Assembly (NCBI GenBank): GCA_027024145.1
Contig: JALVTF010000027.1
Span: 1 to 44,150, forward strand
Direction of reading: 5' to 3'
DNA length: 44,150 nt
DNA from: Campylobacterales bacterium
Lineage (GTDB): Bacteria; Campylobacterota; Campylobacteria; Campylobacterales; Nitratiruptoraceae
In this document: piece by piece, positions 22,754-40,621 of the stretch
Position numbering within the stretch: the stretch's first letter is position 1
Layout: every line of letters starts with the position of its first letter
Notes under the pieces: generated by a model
The model's database searches: none
What the model was told of the DNA's origin: nothing
Seen by the model: only the letters and a program-made list of their open reading frames with translations
Made by a program: the position numbers and the translations under genes

Positions 22754-22785
22754 AAATTGTGAAAAAACCAACAAAGGAGGCACAC

Positions 22786-23169
22786 ATGCCAAAAATCAAT
22801 AGATACGAAGATATCTCTCAAATCGACAAAGAGGCCAAAAGAGATTACATCGACAGACACTCACCATTCATCCACTGTGAATCCACTGCGAAAAAAGGTG
22901 AGAAGTTCCAAGTCAAAGTGCGCGTAGGAAACGAATACTGCCATCCAGACGATTTCGATCACTACATCGCATACGTTCAGCTCTGGGACGGTGAAAGACT
23001 CCTTGGACAAGCCACATTCACACCAGGGTCTCTTGGCAACCAATGCTCACAAACAGAGGTGGATTTCTACATCGTGCCTACGAAAAAAATGAAGCTTACT
23101 GCCATGAGCTACTGTACCAAACACGGGCTTTGGGAGAGCGACGTCGTAGAAGTGGATGTTACCGAATAA
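22786..23169 (+). CDS. superoxide reductase-like (class II SORL) protein
   Basis: The 127-residue single-domain protein carries a complete set of candidate ligands for the square-pyramidal Fe(His)4(Cys) centre of neelaredoxin/desulfoferrodoxin: H25 (DRHSP), H53 and H59 (CHPDDFDHY), C110 and H113 (YCTKHGLWE). This supports reduction of superoxide to peroxide in the cytoplasm. The usual E-K-H-x-P motif is D-R-H-S-P here, so the catalytic lysine is replaced by arginine. There is no N-terminal desulforedoxin zinc/iron domain. AAAGGAGG fixes the start. A terminator follows directly, so it is a single-gene unit. Confidence 0.85.
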   Translation: MPKINRYEDISQIDKEAKRDYIDRHSPFIHCESTAKKGEKFQVKVRVGNEYCHPDDFDHYIAYVQLWDGERLLGQATFTPGSLGNQCSQTEVDFYIVPTKKMKLTAMSYCTKHGLWESDVVEVDVTE

Positions 23170-25561: not shown

Positions 25562-26227
25562 ATGCATATCCTCATAGTCGACGATAACGAAGAGTTGCAA
25601 TATGGTCTTGAAAAAATAGTGAGCGAAGCTGGATATGTTAGCGATGCAGCTCTTACGATACAAGAAGCACAGCAAAAGTTGGAAGAGAAAAACTACGACC
25701 TTATGCTACTTGATTGGATGCTTCCCGATGGAAGCGGAGTGGAATTTTTACAAAAACTTCGTGACGAAGGCTACGTGCTACCGGTTTTACTCTTTTCATC
25801 CAAAAACGAAGTTACGGACAAAGTCGAAGCACTGGACATGGGAGCGGACGACTATTTGGAAAAACCTTTTTCTAATATAGAGCTCCTCGCGCGTATGCGA
25901 GCACTCCTCAGACGCGAAGCACCGCAGAAACAAAGTATCATCACGATAGGCTCTTTGCAAGTGGATACTGTCCAAAGGATTGTGACAATAGATGCAAAAC
26001 GTGTGCATCTTTCGGCAAAGGAGTATGAACTTCTCGAGTTTTTGGCAAGAAACGCCAATATTGTTTTAACTCGTTTTCAGCTTTTGGAGCATCTCAACAA
26101 AGATTTCGATGTCACTGTTTCGAGCAATATCGTAGATGCACATATCAAAAACTTGCGCAAAAAACTGGGTAAGCCTGAAATCATCGAAACGGTTCGCGGT
26201 GTAGGATATGTAATACGCAAACAATAG
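25562..26227 (+). CDS. OmpR/PhoB-family response regulator
   Basis: The 221-residue protein has a receiver domain (D7, D8, phospho-acceptor D51 in LMLLDWMLPDG, S79/S80, K101 in LEKPF) and a C-terminal winged helix (EYELLEFLARNANIVLTRFQ through KLGKPEIIETVRGVGYVIRK). The ATG at 25562 follows AAAGGAG. No kinase gene is adjacent; the only histidine kinase in the window is 9 kb away, at the far side of the cytochrome/oxidase-like locus. Paired direct repeats of the type bound by this family lie in the divergent promoter at 28.7 kb, so that locus is its likely target. Confidence 0.92.
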   Translation: MHILIVDDNEELQYGLEKIVSEAGYVSDAALTIQEAQQKLEEKNYDLMLLDWMLPDGSGVEFLQKLRDEGYVLPVLLFSSKNEVTDKVEALDMGADDYLEKPFSNIELLARMRALLRREAPQKQSIITIGSLQVDTVQRIVTIDAKRVHLSAKEYELLEFLARNANIVLTRFQLLEHLNKDFDVTVSSNIVDAHIKNLRKKLGKPEIIETVRGVGYVIRKQ

Positions 26228-26255
26228 TGCGGGCTCGTATGCCTCGAACCCGCAC
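26227..26255. terminator. bidirectional stem-loop between convergent genes
   Basis: GTGCGGGCTCG (26227-26237) pairs with CGAACCCGCAC (26245-26255), an 11-bp stem with one mismatch and a loop of seven bases. It overlaps the last base of the response regulator stop and ends 6 nt before the cytochrome stop, so it probably ends both transcripts. The flanking T runs are short. Confidence 0.65.
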
Positions 26256-26261
26256 CTTCTC

Positions 26262-28682
26262 TTAGTCCCCGCCTCCTGGACCGTTGTGACAGTCATAACA
26301 ACTCACCTGGTGGCCTGCAGGAAAAGTTTTCGTTCCCCATTTCGTTTGAAAAGTACGCGCACTCATAGTTTTAGAAAGCGCTGATCCTCTATACCCACTT
26401 CCGTGACATGCCGTACAGCTGGTTGCACCGTTATGTTCGGCAATATCTCCGTGTCCGTTGACCCATGCCTGTCCAATCGTATGCATACCGTGAGGACCAC
26501 CGTCACTCGTAAACGGAACGGTTGTGTGGCATGCCGTACATTCACCGATAGTACCTGCATGTCCCTGAGCCCCGATACTTTGGATATTGTCTTCTGGTTT
26601 TGCAGTTGGGTAGATGGCATGTGGCGAACCGTGACAAGCCGAACACTGCATGTTGCCGTGACCATGGCTGTATCGATAGAGACTTTTCCCAGCTACGGGC
26701 ACATCGGGAGTGGTCGCGAATCTATGATCTACTGCCGTACGGAGTGTACCTCGCAAAAGGTCGGTCACAGCTTGTGTATAACGCATACCGTTTTGATGGC
26801 AGCTTTGGCAGTTTGGTTCGTCCAGCCATCCTTGACGTGTGCTGCTTCCTACCGCACTCATGACACCGTGACAACTTTGACATTGGATTTTGTACGTACC
26901 GTCGGCATTTTTCGCGCTTCCCATCGCACCTCTGAGACACTTCGTCGTGGCTCCCGGGTGACATGAGTAGCATGCGTTTCTATTGGTGCTGTCGTTGAGA
27001 GTAAGACCTGTTACGGGATCGATGGCTTGTGCATGCTTCGCATGAATAGCACGGGTAAGAGGTATGATATTGTCCACTCCCGTTCCGGGGAGTGCGTTGC
27101 TTTTGTGGCATGAAGCACACAAAATCGGCGTTCCTCCTCGTGCCGTTGCCTCGAGTCCTTGCGGATCGTACTGCCACCCTTTGGCTTGTAAAGAGCTCTT
27201 GTGATCGCGCACCGCGTTAGGATGTTTTTCATCGTGCAGTCGTAAGATGTTGAATTTGAAATCTTTTTCGGGATCGCTCATATTGACCCATCCATTAGCT
27301 GGGCGTGCATCCGTATATCCCGATGTAGAGCTATGACATTTCTTACAATCCATCTCATCGCTGACAGGCAATACCGTTATCGTCTGAGCCAAAACATTTC
27401 CGGCGCTGTCTTTGGCGACCACTTTGACCAAAGGATAGGTATTGTATGAGCCGTCATCGTTATACGGCATCGTCGGAATACCTTCGGCAATCCACCATTT
27501 GTGCGTCGCATCATAATGAAGCGGATGGGGTGTTTTACTCTGTACGTAGTTTCCGGCAAGTCCTTTGTCCGGTGGCAAAGTCACTCCAAAAAGAGATTGT
27601 ACGTAGTTCCAAAAATTTGTCTTTGGCGCGCTGGTGGTATTCCATTTTCCGGCAAGCGACGGGGTCGCTTCATACGTAATAGTCACACCTGTTGCGATAT
27701 GTTGAGGATGGTTCCCTTTTTTTATGAGTTGCGCTACGAGATTGTTGTAGGGAGGCAGTATGGAAAAGACCGAAAAATCTTTACCGTCCATACAGTGCAT
27801 ACCCAAATCGTTCCACGCCAAGAGTCTGTAACCGTTCGAAATCGCACCTGTCGCAGGATTCGTTCCTGATCCGTTGTTACCGTTTGTATTACCTGGCCCA
27901 TTATTTGTATTCGTCTCGGTATTGCTCCCTATATGAGAATCTTCTTCAGATTTGTGTTGAGTATCAACAGTAGATGAAACATGAGTTGAATCACTATTTG
28001 TTTGTGTCATATCGGATTCTTGTGATGCGTTGTGATGAGCAGCTTGCTTATCTCCATCATTATTTGCTGCATTTACTGATGATGTTTCATTGGTGTTTTT
28101 CCACTGCCCATCAGCAATCTGGAGTTGCACTTGCTCCAAATGAGCAATTGCTTCACCGCTATCTTTTACGAGAGTTTTATCCTTTCCTAAGTAATTCGCA
28201 ACGACCGTAGTATTCACCTCTTGCGAATCCAATCGCAACGGCGGTTTGTCAGCAAGCCTATTTGTGATGTTTCTATCTATCGTGATGGTCGAAGGATCCC
28301 CATCCGTATCCGCACTGAGCAGGAATTGTGCGATACCTATGACTTTTTTGTCATACAATGACACATCTTTATTTTCATGAAACGAAACGATTTTCATGGG
28401 AGTCACGATCGGGTCGTTGTGCGATACGGCCGCATCACCTATTATGACATTCCCGATTTTGAAGGTTATGACCTCACCGTCTTTGAATCGAAAATGTCCG
28501 CCGTTGCTTGTCACACCTGTGCTTCCTTGGTTCCCACGGTATTCCAGACCATCTACAGGACCGTCTATGAAGGTTCCAGTATAGCTGCGAGCACTTTGCG
28601 AAGGTGACGAACCACTCGAACCTCCACCACACCCTACGAACATGATTGTAACGGCTGTGGAAACGAGAAACTTCTTGTACAT
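26262..28682 (-). CDS. multiheme c-type cytochrome lipoprotein (nine CXXCH)
   Basis: The 806-residue product has a lipoprotein signal (IMFVGC, lipid cysteine C18). An N-terminal domain contains TGTFIDGPVDGLEYRG. A long Asn/Ser/Thr/Gly-rich linker precedes a conserved block (LLAWNDLGMHCMDGKDFSVF), and nine heme-binding motifs follow: CKKCH, CASCH, CYSCH, CQSCH twice, CSACH, CTACH twice, CYDCH. It should be an outer- or inner-membrane-anchored electron carrier facing the periplasm or surface. ATG at 28682 follows AAAGGAG; upstream in-frame codons lack support. Similar NDLGMHC-type cytochromes occur in metal- and sulfur-respiring bacteria as I recall. It diverges from the seven-gene operon and shares its control region. 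Confidence 0.92.
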   Translation of the reverse strand: MYKKFLVSTAVTIMFVGCGGGSSGSSPSQSARSYTGTFIDGPVDGLEYRGNQGSTGVTSNGGHFRFKDGEVITFKIGNVIIGDAAVSHNDPIVTPMKIVSFHENKDVSLYDKKVIGIAQFLLSADTDGDPSTITIDRNITNRLADKPPLRLDSQEVNTTVVANYLGKDKTLVKDSGEAIAHLEQVQLQIADGQWKNTNETSSVNAANNDGDKQAAHHNASQESDMTQTNSDSTHVSSTVDTQHKSEEDSHIGSNTETNTNNGPGNTNGNNGSGTNPATGAISNGYRLLAWNDLGMHCMDGKDFSVFSILPPYNNLVAQLIKKGNHPQHIATGVTITYEATPSLAGKWNTTSAPKTNFWNYVQSLFGVTLPPDKGLAGNYVQSKTPHPLHYDATHKWWIAEGIPTMPYNDDGSYNTYPLVKVVAKDSAGNVLAQTITVLPVSDEMDCKKCHSSTSGYTDARPANGWVNMSDPEKDFKFNILRLHDEKHPNAVRDHKSSLQAKGWQYDPQGLEATARGGTPILCASCHKSNALPGTGVDNIIPLTRAIHAKHAQAIDPVTGLTLNDSTNRNACYSCHPGATTKCLRGAMGSAKNADGTYKIQCQSCHGVMSAVGSSTRQGWLDEPNCQSCHQNGMRYTQAVTDLLRGTLRTAVDHRFATTPDVPVAGKSLYRYSHGHGNMQCSACHGSPHAIYPTAKPEDNIQSIGAQGHAGTIGECTACHTTVPFTSDGGPHGMHTIGQAWVNGHGDIAEHNGATSCTACHGSGYRGSALSKTMSARTFQTKWGTKTFPAGHQVSCYDCHNGPGGGD

Positions 28683-28696
28683 GACGACTCCTTTAC

Positions 28697-28712
28697 AGCG
28701 ATATGTATCGCT
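28697..28712 (-). promoter_or_regulatory. inverted repeat between the -10 and ribosome site of the cytochrome gene
   Basis: AGCGAT-ATGT-ATCGCT lies directly after the TACGAT hexamer and just before AAAGGAG. It could be an operator at the transcription start or a small leader hairpin near the ribosome site. Confidence 0.35.
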
Positions 28713-28744
28713 ATCGTAGAGTAGTTCTATGAAAATTTGATGAA
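28713..28744 (-). promoter_or_regulatory. response-regulator-type site and -10 for the cytochrome gene
   Basis: On the minus strand TTCATCAAATTTTCAT (28729-28744) is a direct repeat of TTCAT with an 11-nt period, followed after exactly 10 nt by TACGAT (28713-28718). The repeat covers the -35 position, as expected for activation by an OmpR/PhoB-type regulator. It matches the plus-strand site at 28772-28787 at 14 of 16 positions. Confidence 0.6.
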
Positions 28745-28771
28745 AAACACCACTTATGCCTAAAAGTCGCA

Positions 28772-28803
28772 TTCATACAATTTTCATCTTTGTACTTTAC
28801 AAT
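28772..28803 (+). promoter_or_regulatory. response-regulator-type site and -10 for the seven-gene operon
   Basis: TTCATACAATTTTCAT (28772-28787) is a TTCAT direct repeat with an 11-nt period. TACAAT (28798-28803) follows after exactly 10 nt. Orientation and spacing mirror the site of the divergent cytochrome gene 27 nt away. The expected start gives a leader of about 22 nt with AAAAGGAG before the ATG at 28832. Confidence 0.6.
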
Positions 28804-28831
28804 GGCGGCAATATCACAAAAAAGGAGTGGC

Positions 28832-29914
28832 ATGTTTGTCAATGCCTTGCGAGCATTGCGCGCCAACAGTATTAAAACCGCTCTTATATATATCAGTATG
28901 ACATTCGCCGTCACCGCCATCTTTTTGATAACGGCCATTTCACATGGCATCATCACGATGTATGCATCGATGCTGCAAAGAGACGGAGACATCATAGTGA
29001 CTCAAGCCAAGATAGCAGACACCTTCTTTAGCGATGTGGATATGGCTTTGATACCTTCGATCCGACATATAGATGGTGTCAAAAAAGTCTCTGCACTCAT
29101 CGTGGGTGCAAGTCCGGTAGAGAATCTTCCTATCGTAGCGATTTACGGAAGTTCTGCAAATCGCATGCAGCACTATAAGCTTTTGTGGGGGCACTATCCC
29201 AAACATTCTCAGGTTATCGTGGGCCAAGCGCTCTATCAAAAACTCGGCACCAAAAAGTCCCTCACTATCGGTGGTACCAAATTTCATATCAGCGGAGTCT
29301 ATACGAGCGATGTGGGATTCGAAAACGGCGGCGTCGTCATGCCGCTTGCCGATGCAGGAACGCTCTTTCACAAATCTGCCTCCATGCTGCTCATCACCGT
29401 AGATATGCATAAAAAAATCAATGCAGTTATCAAAAAAATTGGGGCTTTGAGCGATACGATCGAAGCGAAATCCACCCGTAGCTTCATCCAGCACTACAAT
29501 CAGTTCCAACTCATCAACAACTCTTCGTATGCCATATCTTTTATTGCATTTACCATGGGTCTTTTGAGCATCGCTTCGCTCATGACCATCACGGTCTATG
29601 CAAGGAGGGACGAATTTGGCATTATGAGAGCTTTGGGTATTGCACCCAAAAAAATCACTGCAAGTCTTATTGTAGAAAGCCTCATACTGGGACTGGTCTC
29701 CTTTACGAGTGCGCTATCGCTCTCTTTCGCCACACTGTTTATCATCAAAAAGTCGTCACTCTTTCAAGGCTACATCAACGGGGAGATCGACATGACATTG
29801 GTGGCAATGGTTTTGACAGCAACCATTTTCATGAGTGTTGTCGGAGCGTTGTTGCCTGCATATAGCGCTGCTAAAACCGATCCTATCATCTTGATACAGA
29901 GGGGTTGTGCATGA
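28832..29914 (+). CDS. ABC transporter permease, FtsX/MacB/LolE type
   Basis: The 360-residue protein has one N-terminal membrane helix (about 15-37), a periplasmic domain to about residue 225, and three C-terminal helices. YARRDEFGIMRALGIAPKKI is the FtsX-like coupling region and PAYSAAKTDPIILIQRG is the usual C-terminal ending. Such permeases do not carry solutes through a channel but act as mechanotransmitters for lipoprotein release, peptide export or signalling. AAAAGGAG fixes the ATG. It is the first gene of an operon with its ATPase (4-nt overlap) and five further genes. Confidence 0.87.
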   Translation: MFVNALRALRANSIKTALIYISMTFAVTAIFLITAISHGIITMYASMLQRDGDIIVTQAKIADTFFSDVDMALIPSIRHIDGVKKVSALIVGASPVENLPIVAIYGSSANRMQHYKLLWGHYPKHSQVIVGQALYQKLGTKKSLTIGGTKFHISGVYTSDVGFENGGVVMPLADAGTLFHKSASMLLITVDMHKKINAVIKKIGALSDTIEAKSTRSFIQHYNQFQLINNSSYAISFIAFTMGLLSIASLMTITVYARRDEFGIMRALGIAPKKITASLIVESLILGLVSFTSALSLSFATLFIIKKSSLFQGYINGEIDMTLVAMVLTATIFMSVVGALLPAYSAAKTDPIILIQRGCA

Positions 29915-30543
29915 TAGTTGCTACCGGTATTCATCATAAATACGGCAAAGAGACGGCTTTGCGAGATATTGATATTCACATTGCACAAGGGAGTTTCGTC
30001 GCTCTTACCGGAGAGAGTGGAAGCGGTAAATCGACGCTCCTTTCCATCCTCTCTACGCTCCTGCGCCCCACACGAGGAGAGGTGCGTATCTTTGGCAAAA
30101 ACTCCAAAGAGGTAGGGAATATAGACCATTTCAGAAAGGAGACGATAGGTTTTGTGTTTCAGATGCACTACCTTATCCGGTATCTGCGTATTCGACAAAA
30201 CATCACACTGGCGGCACAAAAAAAAGATCAAGAATACATCGATACTCTCATCCGCTATCTCGGAATCGAAGATATCCAGCATAAATTCCCTCACGAAGTC
30301 TCCGGCGGCCAGCGCCAAAGGGCCGCCATCGCAAGAGCAATGGCAAATAGACCCAAAGTGGTGTTTGCCGACGAGCCCACGGGGAGTCTCGATTCGAAAA
30401 ACTCCCAAAAGGTTTTTGCACTACTTCGCGATATCGCAGACAAAGGGACAACCGTCGTCGTCGCAACACACGACACGGCGATTATGGATTTTGCAGACTG
30501 TATTTATAGGGTAGAAGATGGAACAGTTTCACGCATTGGCTAA
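29911..30543 (+). CDS. ABC transporter ATPase, LolD/MacB type
   Basis: The 210-residue nucleotide-binding protein has Walker A GESGSGKST, signature VSGGQRQRAAIA, Walker B KVVFADEP, and the TGSLDSKNSQKVF and ATHDT loops typical of the LolD/MacB/FtsE group. It pairs with the permease just upstream (4-nt ATGA overlap). The gene's last 26 nt overlap the following oxidase-like gene, pointing to coupled translation. Transport role unknown; the operon context suggests assembly or release of an exported redox protein. Confidence 0.9.
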   Translation: MIVATGIHHKYGKETALRDIDIHIAQGSFVALTGESGSGKSTLLSILSTLLRPTRGEVRIFGKNSKEVGNIDHFRKETIGFVFQMHYLIRYLRIRQNITLAAQKKDQEYIDTLIRYLGIEDIQHKFPHEVSGGQRQRAAIARAMANRPKVVFADEPTGSLDSKNSQKVFALLRDIADKGTTVVVATHDTAIMDFADCIYRVEDGTVSRIG

Positions 30544-32077
30544 AAAGCATTTTTTCACATCGCTTTCCTTTTTCACACTCGGCCTGCTCTTTGGTCTTTA
30601 CTACTCCATCAATCTCTTGGGGTATGCCTTGGATGCTCCTTTGCTCGATCCACCCAATGTCCGTGCGGTACATATTTCCTTGATGCTCTATGGATTTATC
30701 CCATTGATGCTTTCATACCTTCCCTTTTTTCTGCTGGCCCAAGACCTCGGCTACGATACAAAAGCGATGCGCTATGTGCAGCTCTATACTATTGTTTGGT
30801 ACTTTTTTTTGCTTTGTATGGTTGTCTCTTTGCTCATGGGCGTACGCAGAGGCCTCGCATTTTACGATTTTCACTATAGTCTCAATTTCATCTTGGCTTT
30901 TGCCGGTTTGTTTTATCTTTTGGGATTCTATCGCTACACGAGACTCTACGATGTCAAACCGCCCTGGGTCAAAACCACATTCCTTGCCATACTCATCGCT
31001 CCTGTGGCTTTGCTCATTTTGATGCATCCGGTCATAGGAAAAGTGGAAGCCACCATTCAAGGTCCTCATGGTGACAATACCCTTGGTATGAGTTTGGCAC
31101 TTATACCTCTTTACTATCTCATTATCAAATATCTCTCCAAAGGCCGATTCCAGGCACGCTGGAACATCTTGTGGATTATTCCGGCGATGTTCTACGCACT
31201 CTCGGTGCTGCATAGAAGTTTCGTATCTGCTTTGACCTATAACGAAGAGTGGTTCTTTCAGTGGCTTACTTTGCTCTATGTACCGCTACTCTATCGGTGG
31301 TACAAAGACGCACCCATCCGGAGTCGTGCCAAAAAATATCTGCTTATTTCTCTTTTGGCTTTTTTGTTCGTCGACATCGAGGGCAATATCCTTTTTATCC
31401 CTTCGATCCGTTGGCTCTTTCACAGAAACGACCTCGTCATCGCCCATGCCCATGTGGCTATAGGTATCGCACTCTTTTTTATGGTGGCTTCGTTGTACTA
31501 CGATATTATCGCCCCCTTGCGCTCCAAACTGTTTGTAAGACTCTATCTTACGGGTCTATTAGGGATATTCACGGTTTTGAGTATTAGCGGATTTGTCGAG
31601 GCTGGGTTTTTGCATTTTTCCATAGACCGATTGTGGCTGGCGCGATCGCTTTTCGGTCTTTTGGTAGTAATATCGTTGCTATCCTTTGTGAAAAAAAGAG
31701 ACTCTTGGAGTCCCCTTGCCTGGTATAACTGCATCGGTTTTATCAGTGACGGCATAGGGGCCGTCACGCTTTTCTTGCTGGGCGCACTGCTCTATCCTCG
31801 TCTCGGTCTTTCTTTTGAGGGAAATTATATGTATGTGGTCTTCGCGTTTATGGGTGCTACGGGCGTTGCGCACTTGATGGCGTTGCGACTTTCTCAGCAT
31901 CAAGAGATACTCACGAGATTCACGGCCATTGCACGCTCTATCGTGGCTGCGGTGTTCCTCTCGCTCTTTCTTTCTCAAAGATTGGGCATCGAAGCGCTGG
32001 GAATAGGATTGTTCGATGCTCTCTATGCGATGATATATTTCGTGCTCTTCTATGCAAAGGAGCTTCGCTATGTTTGA
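30518..32077 (+). CDS. heme-copper oxidase subunit I-like (CcoN/NorB-like) membrane protein
   Basis: The 519-residue protein has about 14 membrane helices. Its histidines fall where those of cbb3 oxidase/NO reductase subunit I do: H52 in VRAVHISLMLYGF (helix II, low-spin heme), H184 in TIQGPHGDNTLGM (like the helix VI copper ligand of the GHNAVGF region), H232 in LSVLHRSFVSALT (helix VII), and H310/H312 in DLVIAHAHVAIG (helix X, compare the AHVHxGxxGW of CcoN/NorB). The usual adjacent HH pair in helix VII appears reduced to one His, so the CuB site may be absent or altered. It overlaps the ATPase gene by 26 nt and the next gene by 8 nt. No subunit II or cytochrome c partner follows. Confidence 0.75.
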   Translation: MEQFHALAKKHFFTSLSFFTLGLLFGLYYSINLLGYALDAPLLDPPNVRAVHISLMLYGFIPLMLSYLPFFLLAQDLGYDTKAMRYVQLYTIVWYFFLLCMVVSLLMGVRRGLAFYDFHYSLNFILAFAGLFYLLGFYRYTRLYDVKPPWVKTTFLAILIAPVALLILMHPVIGKVEATIQGPHGDNTLGMSLALIPLYYLIIKYLSKGRFQARWNILWIIPAMFYALSVLHRSFVSALTYNEEWFFQWLTLLYVPLLYRWYKDAPIRSRAKKYLLISLLAFLFVDIEGNILFIPSIRWLFHRNDLVIAHAHVAIGIALFFMVASLYYDIIAPLRSKLFVRLYLTGLLGIFTVLSISGFVEAGFLHFSIDRLWLARSLFGLLVVISLLSFVKKRDSWSPLAWYNCIGFISDGIGAVTLFLLGALLYPRLGLSFEGNYMYVVFAFMGATGVAHLMALRLSQHQEILTRFTAIARSIVAAVFLSLFLSQRLGIEALGIGLFDALYAMIYFVLFYAKELRYV

Positions 32078-33044
32078 TATATTCGTGTCGCTGTTTGCGG
32101 GTTTGGAGCTATGCTATTACCTACTCATCACCCAAACCGGCATCGTGGAAGCCTACCACTCCGATCTGGCTGCCATAGCGCTCTTGCCTCTTGGAGGTAT
32201 TGTAGGCACCTTCATGATCCCCTCTATCAAAGCAAAAGCGCAGCCTACGACACTGCTATTGCTTTCGCTTCAAAACGCTTTGACGCTACTGTATCCCCAT
32301 TTTGGTGCTTTTTGGCTTTTCATGTTGGGTATCGCGGTAGGAGGACTCGCACCTCTCATCGTCGCTACACTTCGCGAAGCGCGTCCCTATGCCTTGTTCA
32401 TCGCTCTTGCACTCTCCTATGCCACGGGAACGCTTCTTTTTACGTATGATCCTTTGGAACGGAGATTTTTGGGGATGCTTCTTGGCATGGGGGCCATGAT
32501 TTTTTACGTTCTTGCGCTCTTTTTTCATCGCACTCACAAAAAGAGTGCATCCATTAGCTATCCGCTTTGGACGATGTTTGTTTGGGTTTTTCTCGACTCG
32601 GCCCTTTTTGAGACGCTCTCACGAGATACGGTAATACCCATTTGGCGGGAAGGCTACACCCTCCCGATCGTGCTCTTTCACATTCTCGGTGTCACCGCGG
32701 GAATTTTCGGGAAGTGGAATGCGCAGCAAAAATCGCTTGTGATATATCTGCTCTTTGCGCTTTCCTATCTCTTCTATTTTACCCAAGAATCCTTACTTTT
32801 GAGTATGGCCTACCCTTTTGTCATATCCTTGTACAATGTAGCCATTCTCCAAAGCCTCATGGCCCAAAACGATGCAAAAAAGGTGAGCTTTACCATGGTC
32901 GTCGTCTGCTGGGTGGCCTCCGGGGCGGGACTCTTCGTGGCTTTACACCATCTCGTGGCTCTCATGCCCTTCTTGCTTGTGCTTGAAGTTGCCACACAGA
33001 CATTGACGACATTTTTTTATACCACAAAAAGGAGACTAGTATGA
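32070..33044 (+). CDS. polytopic membrane protein, unknown
   Basis: The 324-residue protein has about ten predicted membrane helices and little else: short loops, no CXXCH, and scattered histidines (such as FHILGV and LHHLVAL) that could bind heme but form no known motif. The ATG at 32070 lies 7 nt after AAAGGAG, inside the end of the oxidase-like gene. It may be a membrane partner or stabiliser of that protein. No family recognised. Confidence 0.75.
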   Translation: MFDIFVSLFAGLELCYYLLITQTGIVEAYHSDLAAIALLPLGGIVGTFMIPSIKAKAQPTTLLLLSLQNALTLLYPHFGAFWLFMLGIAVGGLAPLIVATLREARPYALFIALALSYATGTLLFTYDPLERRFLGMLLGMGAMIFYVLALFFHRTHKKSASISYPLWTMFVWVFLDSALFETLSRDTVIPIWREGYTLPIVLFHILGVTAGIFGKWNAQQKSLVIYLLFALSYLFYFTQESLLLSMAYPFVISLYNVAILQSLMAQNDAKKVSFTMVVVCWVASGAGLFVALHHLVALMPFLLVLEVATQTLTTFFYTTKRRLV

Positions 33045-33571
33045 TTCGACTTATTTTCACGATTGTGTTGCTATGCACCATGACTTTCGCAGACCAGTAT
33101 CGATGTACACAAAGCATGATCAAAGCACACACGGAGGTCTTCGGTGATGCAAAAATAGACCCCTTCACCAGTAACGTACACGGCACCCTCTCGATGGACA
33201 AAACTCCCCTGAGTCTCACCGGCACCATTATCATCAAAGCCCATGACCTTGAGTCCGATAACAAGCTCAGGGACAAACACATGTATGAAACCCTCCAAAC
33301 CAAAAAATACCCCTTGATAACGTTTACGATACAAAAGGTCCAAAAAGCTCCCAACGGTCTGTATAGGCTCCATGGAATTTTAAAACTCCACGGTGTCGCA
33401 CGTACACTTGATGTACCGGCTCATATCACACAAGATACGCAAGGAGTACATATTCTCTCCAAATTCTCTATCAAAATGACGCAGTTTCGCATCGTTCCAC
33501 CGAAACTCTTCTTCTTGCATGTGCGCAACAAGGTGGACATCCTTGCCGATCTGCATCTCGTACGAGGCTGA
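33041..33571 (+). CDS. YceI-family periplasmic protein
   Basis: The 176-residue protein has a signal peptide (MIRLIFTIVLLCTMTFA) and a lipocalin-like YceI body, seen in AHDLESDNKLRDKHMYETLQ and KKYPLITFTIQKV, corresponding to the conserved 'sl.T....RD.hL.s..ff....fP...F' block. YceI proteins bind polyisoprenoids such as ubiquinone precursors and are often encoded beside cytochrome b or oxidase genes, which fits here. The start (33041) has AAAAGGAG and overlaps the previous stop by 4 nt. Confidence 0.88.
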   Translation: MIRLIFTIVLLCTMTFADQYRCTQSMIKAHTEVFGDAKIDPFTSNVHGTLSMDKTPLSLTGTIIIKAHDLESDNKLRDKHMYETLQTKKYPLITFTIQKVQKAPNGLYRLHGILKLHGVARTLDVPAHITQDTQGVHILSKFSIKMTQFRIVPPKLFFLHVRNKVDILADLHLVRG

Positions 33572-33575
33572 GCAT

Positions 33576-34028
33576 ATGCGCATGCTCTTTGTCATAGCGA
33601 TACTTGGCGTCTGGGGATATACCGCGATACTCTCGCAAGGAGCAAAAGTCCCTTCGCTTTCGCTTCCCGATCAGTACGGCAGGCTGCATCGCATAGGCGA
33701 GGTGCCTGACCAGAGGCTCCTCGTGGCATTCGACAAAAAGGCGGCACTCCTATGCAACTCCTATCTTGCGAAGCGATCGCCCGATTTTTTACACAGACAC
33801 CATGCACTCTTTATCTCGTGTGTAGACGGAGTGCCGCAGTTCCTCGTGCGAAACTTCATTCTGCCGCAACTTCGCAGACAGAAGTTTCCCATACTCTTGC
33901 TCTATAAAAACAGCAATATCTTTCCCAAAAAAGAGGGAGCTCTTACGTATATCCAAACACTACGAGGCAAAGTCTTACGTATAAGGTATCTGTATGATGA
34001 AGAGGATCTTGAAAAAAATCTTCCCTAA
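33576..34028 (+). CDS. membrane-anchored redoxin-like protein without CXXC
   Basis: The 150-residue protein has an N-terminal hydrophobic anchor (LFVIAILGVWGYTAIL) followed by PSLSLPDQYGRLHRI, a typical opening of peroxiredoxin/TlpA/SCO-like thioredoxin folds. The position of the expected CxxC or peroxidatic cysteine reads VAFDKKAALLCNSYL, so only one cysteine is near and redox activity is doubtful. It may be a pseudo-redoxin chaperone. It lies 4 nt after yceI and overlaps the metallophosphoesterase gene by 35 nt. Confidence 0.7.
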   Translation: MRMLFVIAILGVWGYTAILSQGAKVPSLSLPDQYGRLHRIGEVPDQRLLVAFDKKAALLCNSYLAKRSPDFLHRHHALFISCVDGVPQFLVRNFILPQLRRQKFPILLLYKNSNIFPKKEGALTYIQTLRGKVLRIRYLYDEEDLEKNLP

Positions 34029-34773
34029 AACCGGCTTTGCCATAGCACCCACTCGAGTGCGGCTCACACTTCCAAAACCGAGCACGCTGCATAATCTACG
34101 CATTTTGCACATAAGCGATCTGCATATCGATACCAAAACGCCCATAGAGGATATCGAGGCTCTCGTGCGCTGCATCAACGCCACACCATGCGATATAGCG
34201 GTCTGTACAGGCGATATCATCGACGCTGAGGTAGACAAAATAGAGCACAAACTCCTCATGCTTCGCCATATCCAAAAACCGCTCTACTGTATCAGCGGGA
34301 ACCACGATTTGGTCTACGGCTATGAAAAACTGTGCAAGATTCTACGGCGCTGCAACGTTACCATACTCGATAATCGCTACCTCATCGTGCGCCACAAGCA
34401 TAACGACTTCGTGTTGTGGGGCTTGAGCGATCGATTTTCTCGATTTTTTCATATCCAACGCAACGAAGATACACTGGTACGACAGATACGCAATATATCG
34501 CTTCCGAAAATTTGCATCGCACACCAACCTAAAGATTATAAATATAGCATACTAACGCACAGTGCTCTGTTTCTTTGCGGACATACCCACGGCGGCCAGA
34601 TCTTCCCGTTTCATCTTCTGGTGCGACTTTTTCAGCCCTTTTTGCGTGGTATATACTACAAAAAAGGCGTCACGGTCTATGTCAACAGTGGCCTGGGCGC
34701 ATGGGGGATCAAGTACCGCTTCTTGTCACGTGCGGAAATCGCTTTGATCGAGGTAGATGCACGAAAGCCGTAG
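33994..34773 (+). CDS. YaeI-type metallophosphoesterase
   Basis: The 259-residue protein has all calcineurin-like metal motifs in order: HISDLHID (D-x-H), CTGDIID (GD), ISGNHDLVYG (GNHD), IAHQP, and CGHTHGGQIFP. Relatives such as YaeI and LpxG-like enzymes act on phospholipids or UDP-sugars at the inner membrane; the basic N-terminus (MKRILKKIFPK) could associate with membrane. The substrate is unknown. It is the last gene of the seven-gene operon and its 3' end overlaps the convergent kinase gene by 65 nt. A second ATG directly follows the first. Confidence 0.87.
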   Translation: MMKRILKKIFPKTGFAIAPTRVRLTLPKPSTLHNLRILHISDLHIDTKTPIEDIEALVRCINATPCDIAVCTGDIIDAEVDKIEHKLLMLRHIQKPLYCISGNHDLVYGYEKLCKILRRCNVTILDNRYLIVRHKHNDFVLWGLSDRFSRFFHIQRNEDTLVRQIRNISLPKICIAHQPKDYKYSILTHSALFLCGHTHGGQIFPFHLLVRLFQPFLRGIYYKKGVTVYVNSGLGAWGIKYRFLSRAEIALIEVDARKP

Positions 34774-36736
34774 TGCCTTTGTCTTTGCCGGCACTTTCGA
34801 TCACCAGGTCGCCACCCAAAACTTTCGCTATCTTTTTACTCAGCGCCAGTCCCAAGCCGCTGCCGGTACTCTCATTGCGGATGCGATACTCTCTGTGAAA
34901 CTCTTTGAAAATATCGTCTAAAAACTCTGGCTCGATCCCTATACCAGTATCTTCCACGCACACCGTTACCCAATCACCTCGCACATCGATCCGTATCCGG
35001 ATAGAGCCTTGCTGGGTATATTTGATACTATTGGCCAAAAGATTGATAAGAATTTGTCGCAAGAGTTTCGGATCTGTGGCTATTACCAAAGATGGATGGT
35101 TACTGGTAAAAACGACAGGAATCTCTTTGGCCTGTGCCAAAGGCTCGAGCATCTCGATAGTCTCTTTGCACAGTGCGACGATATCGCAAGATTGTATATG
35201 GGGCTCGAGTTTTCCGGATTCCGCTTTGGCAATGAGTAAAATATCGTTGATGATTTGTAAAAGATGGCTTGCGGAACTCTCGATTTTTCCCAGACTCTCT
35301 TTTGTCTTCGCATCGCAGTCCGAAGAGGTGATGAGAAACTGCGAAAGACTCAAAATCGATCCCAACGGTGTGCGCAGTTCATGGGAAAGCGCGGAGAAGA
35401 AAGAGGTTTTGCTCCTGAGGGCCTCTTTGGTGGTTTTGAGCAGTTCTATCTTATCGATCTGAAGCGATATCATACGGCCTGCAGCTTCGAAAAAGCGCTC
35501 CTCCATGGCGATCTGCTCTTTTGGGGCTTGAATGTGAATATATCCATAGTCTCGATCTTGCAGGTGGCTTTGTAAAAAAATGATCCGTACCTTTGCATCT
35601 TCTATTTCGGGAGCGTACCATACTCTTTGGGCCTTGGTGAGTCGCTGCAACTCCTTACAGGCACGCTCTATCGTCTGCTCCTTCGTGTCGCTTTGAACCA
35701 TCTGCGCGAAGAAATCCATAAGATTGATGAGCGTTTGCACCGTTTTTTGGTTTTGCATCTCAATCGCCCGCAAAGCCTGCGCTACCTTCTGCATGAGCCG
35801 GTTGAAATTTTCGGCGAGTTCTCCTATTTCATCTTTGGAATCGATCCTTATAGCGGCCGTGTAGTTGTTGGAGGGAACTATCTTCGAAGCGATAGCAGAG
35901 AGCCTTCGAATCGGCTCGACGATCTTTCTATCGACTACGAGTATGAGAATCGAAATCAAAAGCAATATCACTACAAAAGTCAAAAAGAGCATACTTTTGA
36001 CTTGGCGTACGGTCTCGAAAGCCACACTCTTGTCCAGTGCGTAGCCTAGTCGCCACCCTCGCAAGACCCCTTCTAACGGTTTATAGACAAAGAGGTAATC
36101 ATGAGCGAGAGTTCGTGTCGGTGGAGCGGGAAATATCGCATGGAGTGTTTGAGGAGCTTGCCGCGGCGGCACGATCCAAGCCAATACGTGTTTTCGCGTG
36201 TGGAGAATCGTACCGAGCTCTTCGATAGGCAACAAAAGCACCATAGATCCCAGCAACTTTTTCGTATCAAACGAAGCATAGATAGGAGTCGCAAAGATGA
36301 TGTAGCGTTCGAAGACAAAAGGCTTGGAGCTTTGCTTCACATGTGAAAAAACCCGATGCAAAAAAGCGGCATGCGCCTGAAGCATCGTAGAAGCCACTGG
36401 CACCCCTTGTGTATCGAAAACGATAAATTGTACATGGTGACCGATATCGTGTTTCTTCTTTTGCAAAAGCTGCACGATACGTCTGTCGATATCTTTTGCG
36501 ATGACATCGTCCATGATTTCAAGATGCGACAAAAATATCGTCTGCCGCATCAGCCGCTGCACGAAACGCCTAATCTTCTCCACAGAATAGGTGGCCTCGG
36601 TGGTGAGCTGGTCCAGCGCTCTTTTTTGCAGGACTTTCGTTTCGTAGTTCGAAAAGATCGAAACAATCGCCAAATACGCCACGGCGATAGTACCAAAGAA
36701 AGCTATGAGCAGCTTGGTACGAACAGACACACGCAT
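34709..36736 (-). CDS. sensor histidine kinase
   Basis: The 675-residue kinase has TM1 (about 9-29), a large periplasmic sensor region (30-248) of Cache-like size, TM2 (249-268), HAMP (about 270-322), a GAF-like segment (about 345-430), the HisKA helix with H452 (FSALSHELRTPLGS) and a HATPase domain: N box 562-573, DTGIG 596-600, GSGLGLAL 625-632. It has no receiver domain, so it must signal to a separate regulator; the orphan response regulator at 25.6 kb is the obvious candidate. It is the third gene of an operon with an outer-membrane barrel and a short binding-protein-like gene, which may supply its input. Confidence 0.9.
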   Translation of the reverse strand: MRVSVRTKLLIAFFGTIAVAYLAIVSIFSNYETKVLQKRALDQLTTEATYSVEKIRRFVQRLMRQTIFLSHLEIMDDVIAKDIDRRIVQLLQKKKHDIGHHVQFIVFDTQGVPVASTMLQAHAAFLHRVFSHVKQSSKPFVFERYIIFATPIYASFDTKKLLGSMVLLLPIEELGTILHTRKHVLAWIVPPRQAPQTLHAIFPAPPTRTLAHDYLFVYKPLEGVLRGWRLGYALDKSVAFETVRQVKSMLFLTFVVILLLISILILVVDRKIVEPIRRLSAIASKIVPSNNYTAAIRIDSKDEIGELAENFNRLMQKVAQALRAIEMQNQKTVQTLINLMDFFAQMVQSDTKEQTIERACKELQRLTKAQRVWYAPEIEDAKVRIIFLQSHLQDRDYGYIHIQAPKEQIAMEERFFEAAGRMISLQIDKIELLKTTKEALRSKTSFFSALSHELRTPLGSILSLSQFLITSSDCDAKTKESLGKIESSASHLLQIINDILLIAKAESGKLEPHIQSCDIVALCKETIEMLEPLAQAKEIPVVFTSNHPSLVIATDPKLLRQILINLLANSIKYTQQGSIRIRIDVRGDWVTVCVEDTGIGIEPEFLDDIFKEFHREYRIRNESTGSGLGLALSKKIAKVLGGDLVIESAGKDKGTTAFVHLPRSKRFPHVTRSGT

Positions 36737-36740
36737 GAGA

Positions 36741-37157
36741 CTACTTCCACTCGTATACTATCTTTAATCCGTAGCGCAAAGCCACACTCTTTTTCATATA
36801 TCCCAAAGCATAGGTAATTTTTTTGATGTAGAGTGCCGCTGCCTTTTGCGAGCGTACAACTTTTGGAGGTCTATGTCCGCGATAGTGCGCTATGAGCCAG
36901 TAATGCTCGAGTTCTTGTGTGCTTTTATGCAAAACCTTTTTTTCAAAGCGTTTGCGCAAAGGGTGATTGAACGGCAGATTCAAGAGCATGACTCTATATC
37001 CGTGTAGCGTGTGACGCTTATCGAGATACAGCGCCCTGATGAGAGCCGGTGTGAGATGATGAATATGAAACTTGGGATTCGTAGCGACCACCAAGACATC
37101 GGCATGCAACAGTGAAGCCAAAAACAGTGCTGCGATATATCTCGTCATCTGTGCCAC
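36741..37157 (-). CDS. short phosphate-binding-type periplasmic protein
   Basis: The 138-residue exported protein (YIAALFLASLLHA signal) resembles one lobe of PstS-like binding proteins: VVATNPKFHIHHLTPALIRALYLDKRHTLHG, then RKRFEKKVLHKSTQELEHYW and a final ALGYM. This small family is often encoded with sensor kinases or TonB systems. It probably binds a ligand and presents it to the downstream kinase (4 nt apart), but phosphate binding is not shown. The start is GTG at 37157 or ATG at 37148; neither has a strong ribosome site, so coupling to the upstream gene (3-nt gap) is likely. Confidence 0.72.
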   Translation of the reverse strand: MAQMTRYIAALFLASLLHADVLVVATNPKFHIHHLTPALIRALYLDKRHTLHGYRVMLLNLPFNHPLRKRFEKKVLHKSTQELEHYWLIAHYRGHRPPKVVRSQKAAALYIKKITYALGYMKKSVALRYGLKIVYEWK

Positions 37158-37160
37158 TTT

Positions 37161-38120
37161 CTAAAACATGATAGAAAAGGAACAGAGCACTTTGCCATAC
37201 CCGTGATCGCTCACATCCAGCTCACCCTTGAAAGCCATGTAGGGAACGGGACGATAGGTATATCCAAATACCGCGTCGCTGCGACTCTGCGTCCTGTCGC
37301 GGAATCGCTCCACCCGCAAAATAAGATCATGGCACACATGCAGATGCCAAAGGTTTTGCATATATACGTCATACATGAGTTTATGAAAGCTATCGGTTTT
37401 GCGTACGCCAGCTTCGATCATAAATTTCCACAAAGACGATTCTTTCATATAGCCCAGTGTCGAATAGACCGAATCCCCATCGTTTCTTTGGGCAAACTCG
37501 CCGATAGAGGCCTTCACGACACTATCCTCTGCGTTCCAAGCAAGCGCTACTGCGTAGTGGTGTTTGAGGCTGAAATTATTGTACTGATCATCGATGCCGT
37601 GGTTGTGCTGAAGCGTACAATAGAGCGTTGTCGTATCGAAGTAGTGTTTATATTCCAGCCCGGTGCTCATTTCAGGAAAGATACTCTCTATGAAATTGGG
37701 ATCGGATGTGGTATCGCGCAACACATTGATAGGTAGCACATTCCAAAAACCCGCCTGCGTGAGGAACTTCCCGATAACTATTTCACTCTCGTCATCGATA
37801 TCATAGCTATAGTAGAGGCGTTCGATATGGATCTTTGTATTGACATGTTCGTTTTCGTACTTTTCATTGAAGGATTTGGTATAGAAATCTTTGATCTCAA
37901 ATTCGCTCATAAAACCTGAACGCATGAAATCGCCGTAGAGCATCAATGCGAGTTCGTCGATCACTATCTGCTTTTTTTTGCCCTGGGCTTCTCCCACGGC
38001 AGAGAGATAACCACCCAGATATACAGGAACATCGTCGAGTTTGAGGCCCTGGCCCGGGACATAGCGTTCATCCGCAAAAGCAAAACACACCACAACCATC
38101 AAAAAAACAAGTATGCGCAT
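37161..38120 (-). CDS. outer-membrane beta-barrel (porin-like) protein
   Basis: The 319-residue protein has a signal peptide (RILVFLMVVVCFAFA) and alternating amphipathic strands rich in Tyr/Asp/Phe, ending in FSIMF with the C-terminal aromatic residue needed for BAM insertion. GKFLTQAGFWNVLPINVL resembles loops of porin-like and OprP-like barrels. It should sit in the outer membrane. GGAG precedes the ATG and TACAAT (38171-38176) is the likely -10. It is the first gene of the barrel/binding-protein/kinase operon. Confidence 0.78.
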   Translation of the reverse strand: MRILVFLMVVVCFAFADERYVPGQGLKLDDVPVYLGGYLSAVGEAQGKKKQIVIDELALMLYGDFMRSGFMSEFEIKDFYTKSFNEKYENEHVNTKIHIERLYYSYDIDDESEIVIGKFLTQAGFWNVLPINVLRDTTSDPNFIESIFPEMSTGLEYKHYFDTTTLYCTLQHNHGIDDQYNNFSLKHHYAVALAWNAEDSVVKASIGEFAQRNDGDSVYSTLGYMKESSLWKFMIEAGVRKTDSFHKLMYDVYMQNLWHLHVCHDLILRVERFRDRTQSRSDAVFGYTYRPVPYMAFKGELDVSDHGYGKVLCSFSIMF

Positions 38121-40078: not shown

Positions 40079-40621
40079 TCAGCCTCGGCAGAGTTTGGGC
40101 GCTATCTGGCTCCAACATCGCTCACAGAATCGATATCCTTTGGCATCGGTATCGGCGAGGGTATTGGAAAAATGCATCACGCAATGAGGGTTGGGACAAT
40201 GTCCCAACCCGAAGGCGTGTCCTATTTCGTGATCCGCTTCGGTAAGAACACGACGCAAAAAAAGATTCCTATCTTCCATCAAACCATAGAAGCCATTGGA
40301 AAGTCTCGCAGTAGCAATCAGTGCCACATGCGCTACGGGCGAGGCGATACCGAAGACGAAATTGAGCCCATCTTCGAAAATATCTTTGTCTGTCACACCC
40401 AGGACTATGCTGTTTGGCATCGCAAAGGGTATGAGAGCGTGCAAAAGCATCGCCGCGCGGTATTGTCCTCTTTTATCATCATACCACTGCGGCTGCAAAG
40501 CAGCAGGAACGACTTTTCGCACTTCGATACCGAAAATTTGCGGCAACTTCTCTTGTAAAAATGAAATTGCTTCTCTATCTATAACCGAAAAATCAACAAT
40601 AATAAATCTATCGATACACAT
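40079..40621 (-). CDS. archaemetzincin-family zinc metalloprotease
   Basis: The 180-residue protein carries the full archaemetzincin signature. H131-E-I-G-H135-A-F-G-L-G-H141-C142-x4-C147-x-M149 is followed by C166-x2-C169, giving the catalytic zinc site, the Met turn and a second, structural four-cysteine zinc site. There is no signal peptide, so it is cytoplasmic. The family (AmzA) is mostly archaeal and vertebrate, with scattered bacterial members; its physiological substrates are unclear. AGGAAAGAGA precedes the ATG. It is third in an operon after the SYLF and zinc-ribbon genes. Confidence 0.88.
   Translation of the reverse strand: MCIDRFIIVDFSVIDREAISFLQEKLPQIFGIEVRKVVPAALQPQWYDDKRGQYRAAMLLHALIPFAMPNSIVLGVTDKDIFEDGLNFVFGIASPVAHVALIATARLSNGFYGLMEDRNLFLRRVLTEADHEIGHAFGLGHCPNPHCVMHFSNTLADTDAKGYRFCERCWSQIAPKLCRG

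Follow-up and report, generated by a model that had tools for sequence, protein, structure and literature searches.

Protection of bacterial membranes against lipid peroxyl radicals has been described for LcoA-BcnA, in which a YceI lipocalin acts with a b-type cytochrome, a cytochrome b561, and YceI structures have been reported with isoprenoids, including ubiquinone-8 (PMC9113575). We analyzed a locus with a related gene content in a 44,150-nucleotide stretch of DNA (here referred to as the window) from a vent Campylobacterales bacterium of the Nitratiruptoraceae (GenBank assembly GCA_027024145.1, contig JALVTF010000027.1), which is one of the 102 contigs of a 1.53-Mb genome. A preliminary description, made from the sequence without database searches, had claimed a single 12-gene extracytoplasmic redox locus bracketed by a regulator and a kinase. 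All 12 open reading frames are present with unchanged coordinates (Table 1). They do not form one conserved unit but a lineage-specific nesting of two modules, and a genome of the same family (G018) lacks the first of them. Module 1 (28832-34773) encodes an ABC permease and ATPase, a protein with the fold of the cbb3 oxidase subunit CcoN, a small protein with the fold of the major facilitator superfamily (MFS), YceI, a thioredoxin-fold protein, and a phosphoesterase. Module 2 encodes an outer-membrane barrel, a binding-protein-like protein, a histidine kinase, a response regulator, and a nonaheme lipoprotein. The best explanation that we can offer, and a tentative one, is that one regulator joins these two modules and that module 1 may serve envelope-lipid maintenance, by redox or headgroup chemistry, a reading that we favor over nitric oxide (NO) reduction or respiration.

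To define the extent of module 1, we followed the gene for its CcoN-fold protein (here referred to as the COX-like gene). This gene is present in 60 of 397 Campylobacterota genomes and absent from 15 other genomes of the same genus and 6 of the same family. A single-sequence scan of genome contigs for the COX-like protein gave 0 matches, and an alignment-based scan gave 105 contigs. We kept 80 of these, labelled Campylobacterota or just "Proteobacteria" or "bacterium"; they include Arcobacter sensu lato, Sulfurospirillum, Sulfurimonas, Sulfuricurvum, Sulfurovum, and Nitratifractor. In 100 loci fetched via the COX-like gene, where gaps in synteny often fall at contig ends, the permease is present in 94 (47 to 56% identity), the ATPase in ~91, the membrane protein in 93, YceI in 86, and the thioredoxin-fold gene in 66. 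These five core genes, from permease to YceI, are syntenic in ~100 Campylobacterota loci, with the thioredoxin-fold gene and a hydrolase as frequent companions. The co-conservation on which the preliminary description had staked its proposal is therefore found for the core of module 1. None of the open-licence papers that we searched for this gene combination describes it, and we provisionally regard module 1 as a widely conserved operon that is undescribed in that literature. As in LcoA-BcnA, a (predicted) di-heme b-type membrane cytochrome is tied genetically to a YceI lipocalin, the COX-like and YceI genes being syntenic in one operon in 86 of the 100 loci. The cytochrome differs, having a CcoN fold, while cytochrome b561 is just a co-regulated neighbor in some loci. 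Module 1 also adds an ABC transporter, an MFS protein, a putative lipid phosphodiesterase, and two-component control.

The preliminary description had labelled the COX-like protein "oxidase-like," which is correct for its fold and heme ligands and incorrect for its copper site. A profile search gave cbb3 CcoN as the sole meaningful match (a search of the PDB with the single sequence returned no usable match), and the AlphaFold model (pLDDT 85) had cbb3 as its best Foldseek match (TM-score 0.55 to 0.64). The three heme-ligand histidines, H52 in helix II and H310 and H312 in helix X, are invariant in 101 of 101 sequences. The protein thus shares its fold and these histidines with the CcoN (cbb3) branch of the heme-copper oxidase (HCO) superfamily, but it lacks the three-His CuB site, and its operon contains neither CcoO/CcoP nor a cupredoxin subunit. 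The position of the copper-binding His in helix VI aligns with D186, with H184 two residues away; alignment columns 186 to 301 contain no conserved His, and the helix-VII His pair is missing, so that no more than one copper ligand out of three could be left. H184, D186, R233, E244, and H302 are likewise invariant or nearly so, with D186 and R233 invariant, and a predicted Arg/Asp/His pocket over a heme may recall those of peroxidases. The protein is unlikely to be the terminal oxidase, as a cbb3-strength oxidase is encoded in each of the 23 genomes tested. As far as open-licence papers show, this CuB-less family is provisionally new.

Membership in the HCO superfamily also raises the question of whether module 1 is an unusual NO reductase or NO-detoxifying system, similar to gNOR, with accessory genes. 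A gNOR with an active-site Asp has been reported from Sulfurimonas and Sulfurovum (PMC8756737), the COX-like protein likewise has an Asp in its helix-VI region, and the operon of Sulfurimonas-type loci has nirS/norCB and a kinase with an ODP domain as neighbors. However, the metal-B site of cNOR, qNOR, and gNOR, with its helix-VII His plus Glu or Asp, is lacking in the COX-like protein, as are a conserved His between positions 186 and 301 and a subunit II in the operon. In addition, relatives carry a separate gNOR-like HCO gene. In L171:7574-9286, and in HCO matches of G278, G024, and G253, the helix-VI Asp (LDLVADG) is accompanied by an intact helix-VII SHH motif and preceded by a gene for 197 amino acids, a possible subunit II; the L171-type HCO is likely gNOR. 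With this control being another gene that keeps SHH, we rejected a gNOR identity for the COX-like protein. We also rejected a tight coupling to denitrification, since a check for NirS across the 397 genomes found it in only 21 of the 60 operon-bearing genomes, leaving 39 without it, and the window genome already encodes cbb3, NorCB, and NirS. We therefore consider the NO explanation improbable. In the Sulfurimonas-type loci L169 (G215:C104), L097, L098, L102, L104, L122, and L129, module 1 faces the ODP-domain histidine kinase/regulator pair; nirS, norCB, and heme d1 genes follow ~10 kb onward in such loci, and their operons mostly lack the promoter box described below.

Several of the remaining products of module 1 belong to lipid-related families. 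The FtsX-like permease with a MacB periplasmic domain and the LolD-like ATPase resemble the type VII ABC systems LolCDE and MacB, from which they differ in having a single permease and no MacA/TolC partner in the operon; their scores are far below the NCBIfam equivalog cut-offs (LolCE, 41.7 against 362; LolD, 165 against 308; MacB, 158 against 966). The permease probably starts with the ATG at 28832, preceded by AAAAAAGGAG. YceI belongs to PF04264 (65.9 bits versus a curated cut-off of 23.7) and matches polyisoprenoid-binding proteins in the PDB. The small membrane protein has a 12-transmembrane MFS fold by its AlphaFold model (pLDDT 95.6), whose top Foldseek matches were all MFS proteins (TM-score 0.5 to 0.7); a PDB search with an MFS-like profile gave no usable match. 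The label "redoxin-like" holds for the thioredoxin fold of the next product but not for its chemistry: it has no CxxC, and among 65 homologues, 61 have no Cys in the mature part and 0 have CxxC. Pfam and NCBIfam contain no family for the MFS-fold, thioredoxin-fold, binding-protein-like, and barrel proteins of the window. Finally, the hydrolase slot is occupied by a calcineurin-type metallophosphoesterase in 56 loci and by a metallo-beta-lactamase-type enzyme in 26, never by both (0 loci), with two changes on the tree and with metal motifs intact in nearly all. The closest PDB relative of the metallo-beta-lactamase type is NAPE-PLD (1e-37), and the best-matching families of the metallophosphoesterase are YaeI/LpxG; a PDB search with the metallophosphoesterase gave no usable match. 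That two unrelated folds occupy one slot, each nearest to lipid phosphodiesterases, argues for a lipid phosphodiester step.

Two-component control, which the preliminary description had proposed, is well supported by a promoter signature. Comparison of the regulator-cytochrome intergenic regions revealed a tandem repeat, TTCAT-N6-TTCAT, read along transcription. This box, scored without the TANNNT element, occurs in 41 of 84 distinct module 1 promoters, versus 0.16 in shuffled sequences (maximum, 1). In the same 84 promoters, spacings of 3, 4, 5, 7, 8, and 9 gave 0 or 1 occurrence and the opposite orientation gave 2. TANNNT follows exactly 10 nucleotides past the box in 37 of the 41. Direct repeats of this kind, with an 11-bp period close to a helical turn and placed where a -35 element would lie, fit control by an OmpR/PhoB-type activator, and the box is a predicted binding site. 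Among cytochrome promoters, it is found in all nine that belong to module 2 and in none of six without the sensor cassette; L200, by a regulator fragment, has the box. The 1.53-Mb genome contains exactly two copies of the full pattern TTCAT-N6-TTCAT-N10-TANNNT, one preceding the cytochrome and the other the permease, back to back, and 0 copies of a reversed control pattern. G278, too, has exactly two copies of the full pattern, in front of the cytochrome and of the first gene of module 1. Because regulator and box co-occur, we infer that the neighboring regulator binds the box, and one two-component switch appears to turn on both module 1 and the nonaheme cytochrome. A third close copy of the cytochrome-type box lies at G000:C96:6892-6907, ~60 bp before aroB; as it has no exact -10 element, we did not count it as a target.

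These data also bear on whether modules 1 and 2 are mere neighbors, functionally unlinked in the window genome. Both modules are widespread without each other, as such an explanation predicts. Yet the sole two full boxes of the genome lie between the modules, with correct orientation and spacing, and G278 is also boxed before both, which makes mere adjacency very improbable.

To identify other genes under the same box, we scanned ~1,850 genes in the 100 loci for the exact box, or for one mismatch plus a -10 element. Boxed genes included 45 permease, 9 thioredoxin-fold, 7 first-gene MFS, 7 regulator, 3 cytochrome b561, 3 metallophosphoesterase, 2 LtaS-like, 2 multiheme cytochrome, 2 HD-GYP, and 1 EptA-like gene, counts that are not independent events, as some of the loci are near-duplicates or come from related genomes. 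Only 4 of 1,069 unclassified genes had the box, and one of these encodes a PAP2 phosphatase and another a NAPE-PLD-like hydrolase. In L036 (4766-7428) and L056, genes for cytochrome b561 and an LtaS-like sulfatase-fold protein, each boxed, stand directly upstream of module 1. EptA and DgkA genes adjoin the operon in the Arcobacteraceae-type loci L039, L068, L070 (14320-16277), and L074, with the EptA gene of L074 boxed. We favor envelope-lipid maintenance because this box is shared, in other genomes, by EptA-like, LtaS-like, PAP2, and cytochrome b561 genes.

The regulators themselves resemble those of the envelope-stress systems PmrAB, CusRS, and HprRS: they are of the OmpR type, and EptA-DgkA pairs adjoin the operon or share its box. 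They differ in their TTCAT-N6-TTCAT site and in a regulon extended by module 1 and, where module 2 is present, by a nonaheme cytochrome. The Arcobacteraceae-type regulator-kinase pairs beside the operon resemble CusRS/HprRS, which would fit a role of module 1 in handling metal, such as copper supply or defense under CusRS-like control. These regulators and kinases match TIGR01387 and TIGR01386 at 239 to 255 bits, slightly below the cut-offs (247 to 254 against 279 and 239 to 255 against 293, respectively). An MFS protein would also suit this explanation, CcoA being an MFS copper importer for cbb3 assembly. However, relatives of HprRS and PmrAB score highly as well, and the window regulator (171 against 279) is PhoB/RppA/PmrA-like, at scores under the curated cut-offs, and not CusR-like. 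The operon has no Cys-rich or metal-binding chaperone, and the COX-like protein has lost its copper ligands. A metal-handling role is thus about as improbable as the NO explanation.

Module 2 has its own distribution. Its cassette of barrel, binding-protein-like protein, kinase, and regulator is present in 47 of the 397 genomes, and homologues of the nonaheme cytochrome (57 to 72% identity) are present in 26, often beside the cassette. In G018, and alike in G019 and G206, the cytochrome and regulator genes are followed by the kinase, binding-protein-like, and barrel genes (order <cytochrome regulator> <kinase <binding protein <barrel), so that regulator and kinase are adjacent; the bracketing of the locus by this pair, proposed earlier as its arrangement, is not a conserved one. 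The pair looks "split" in the window because module 1 sits between the cytochrome and kinase genes. Module 1 of G278 and G089 comes after the cytochrome of module 2. The window regulator is 59% identical to that of G018 and 48 to 60% identical to other module 2 regulators. The kinase has two transmembrane segments (residues about 7 to 31 and 242 to 276), and the barrel homologues (27 to 40% identity) always precede the binding-protein-like gene. In a quick tree of COX-like proteins, the window protein groups with vent Sulfurimonas and Campylobacterales metagenome-assembled genomes (SH-aLRT 98, 5 rows); association of module 1 with the cassette requires 6 changes and with the cytochrome 5, indicating that the pairing of the modules recurred.

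The claim of a nine-heme lipoprotein was confirmed by counting nine CxxCH motifs and a lipobox (FVGC) in the protein, whose likely start is at 28682; a PDB search with it gave no usable match. This cytochrome is the basis for an explanation in which the whole locus respires an external acceptor: the cassette would sense the acceptor, and the lipoprotein would supply it with electrons from the quinone pool, to which module 1 provides the link, for example through YceI carrying quinone over the periplasm. Its MtrC/MtrF-like domains, the divergent shared promoters of the window, the boxes of G278 before cytochrome and module 1, and the adjacency of the two in separate parts of the tree (the 5 changes above) are consistent with this. 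On the other hand, only ~6 of the 100 module 1 loci carry a nonaheme gene, most genomes with that gene have no module 1, and the regulon elsewhere consists of lipid-headgroup enzymes. We consider this explanation unlikely, though less so than either NO or metal handling. The earlier suggestion of acceptor respiration, detoxification, or NO handling is thus not supported for module 1, given its missing CuB ligands, the cbb3, NorCB, and NirS already encoded, the operon-bearing genomes without NirS, and the lipid-headgroup regulon. For the nonaheme protein alone, electron transfer to the outside is plausible. All of its homologues contain a WNDLGMHC...FSVFSILPPYNNL domain that is invariant (residues 290 to 315 of the window protein, counted from the 28682 start), and in CLRGAMG they have a Cys free of heme; these features suggest a possible function other than electron transfer. 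L189 and L190 (Sulfurimonadaceae g46) contain two or three copies of the gene, in tandem or dispersed, and the extra copies checked are also boxed.

For envelope-lipid maintenance, we count the core synteny, YceI, the MacB/LolCE-type ABC pair, the hydrolase swap, the loss of CuB with heme ligands kept, the box and the genes that share it, the EptA-DgkA pairs, the resemblance of the Arcobacteraceae-type regulators to CusRS/HprRS, and the precedent of LcoA-BcnA. In such a system, the MacB/LolCDE-type pair would take a lipid (a phospholipid or an isoprenoid/quinone) out of the inner membrane, and YceI would ferry it through the periplasm. Quinol electrons might reach this lipid, or a peroxide that it bears, through the CcoN-fold protein, for which we predict two b hemes and, at the copper position, an Arg/Asp/His pocket. 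A lipid phosphodiester would be cut by the phosphoesterase, whose place is taken in other species by the NAPE-PLD-like enzyme, and the MFS protein could transport substrate or product. Module 1 would be induced when oxidative, metal, or membrane-active agents stress the envelope, in a role akin to that of LcoA-BcnA in shielding Burkholderia membranes from peroxyl radicals. A more specific proposal, which we consider rather unlikely as it stands, is that the copper-less protein carries out membrane redox chemistry for an operon of lipid repair or modification, as would a quinol-dependent lipid-hydroperoxide reductase with a peroxidase-like Arg/Asp/His pocket, and that the vent sensor cassette couples it to an outer-membrane nonaheme cytochrome. 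Several points weigh against lipid maintenance. A thioredoxin-fold protein without cysteine leaves the obvious reductase step missing, and in the window, the phosphoesterase is the sole lipid enzyme in the regulon. Half of the module 1 promoters have no exact box, and the ~10-kb distance to nirS-nor genes in Sulfurimonas-type loci makes an NO link possible. Heme binding and the pocket are deduced from an alignment and a 19-sequence AlphaFold model.

Table 1. Features of the two-module locus, in window coordinates
Feature	Module	Position	Strand	Basis
OmpR/PhoB-family response regulator	2	25562..26227	+	Response_reg + Trans_reg_C
Nonaheme c-type lipoprotein	2	26262..28682	-	9 CxxCH, lipobox FVGC; Cytochrome_C7, MtrC/MtrF II/IV matches
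Promoter box toward nonaheme gene		28713..28744	-	TTCATCAAATTTTCAT-N10-TACGAT
Promoter box toward permease		28772..28803	+	TTCATACAATTTTCAT-N10-TACAAT
FtsX/MacB/LolCE-type ABC permease	1	28832..29914	+	MacB_PCD + FtsX
LolD/FtsE/MacB-type ABC ATPase	1	29905..30543	+	ABC_tran; DevA/FtsE/LolD models
CcoN-fold di-heme b-type protein without CuB (putative)	1	30518..32077	+	COX1 near threshold
Minimal MFS-fold membrane protein	1	32052..33044	+	AlphaFold/Foldseek; no Pfam or NCBIfam family
YceI-family periplasmic lipid-binding lipocalin	1	33041..33571	+	PF04264
Thioredoxin-fold-like protein without redox cysteines	1, accessory	33576..34028	+	Weak Bcp match
Calcineurin-type metallophosphoesterase, YaeI/LpxG-like	1, accessory	33994..34773	+	PF00149; YaeI/LpxG models, 83-84 bits
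Membrane sensor histidine kinase, extracytoplasmic domain	2	34709..36736	-	HAMP, HisKA, HATPase_c
Small periplasmic binding-protein-like gene, 138 amino acids	2	36741..37157	-	Homologues between barrel and kinase
Outer-membrane barrel of sensor cassette	2	37161..38120	-	Homologue L114 matches Porin_O_P

Elsewhere in the window, a desulfoferrodoxin-like gene lies a little upstream of the locus (22759-23169), and 40079-40621 encodes a homologue of archaemetzincin (peptidase M54).

If this interpretation is correct, a copper-less relative of the heme-copper oxidases, with an altered pocket that is invariant across the order, would serve in a lipid-type operon, a new use of a respiratory oxidase fold; annotation as a terminal oxidase or an NO reductase is an easy mistake to make for such CuB-less proteins. 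The regulon defined by the promoter signature can be tested directly, and some of the genera that carry the operon (Arcobacter sensu lato and Sulfurospirillum) include cultured members. In vent bacteria, one switch would then control both surface electron transfer and envelope maintenance.

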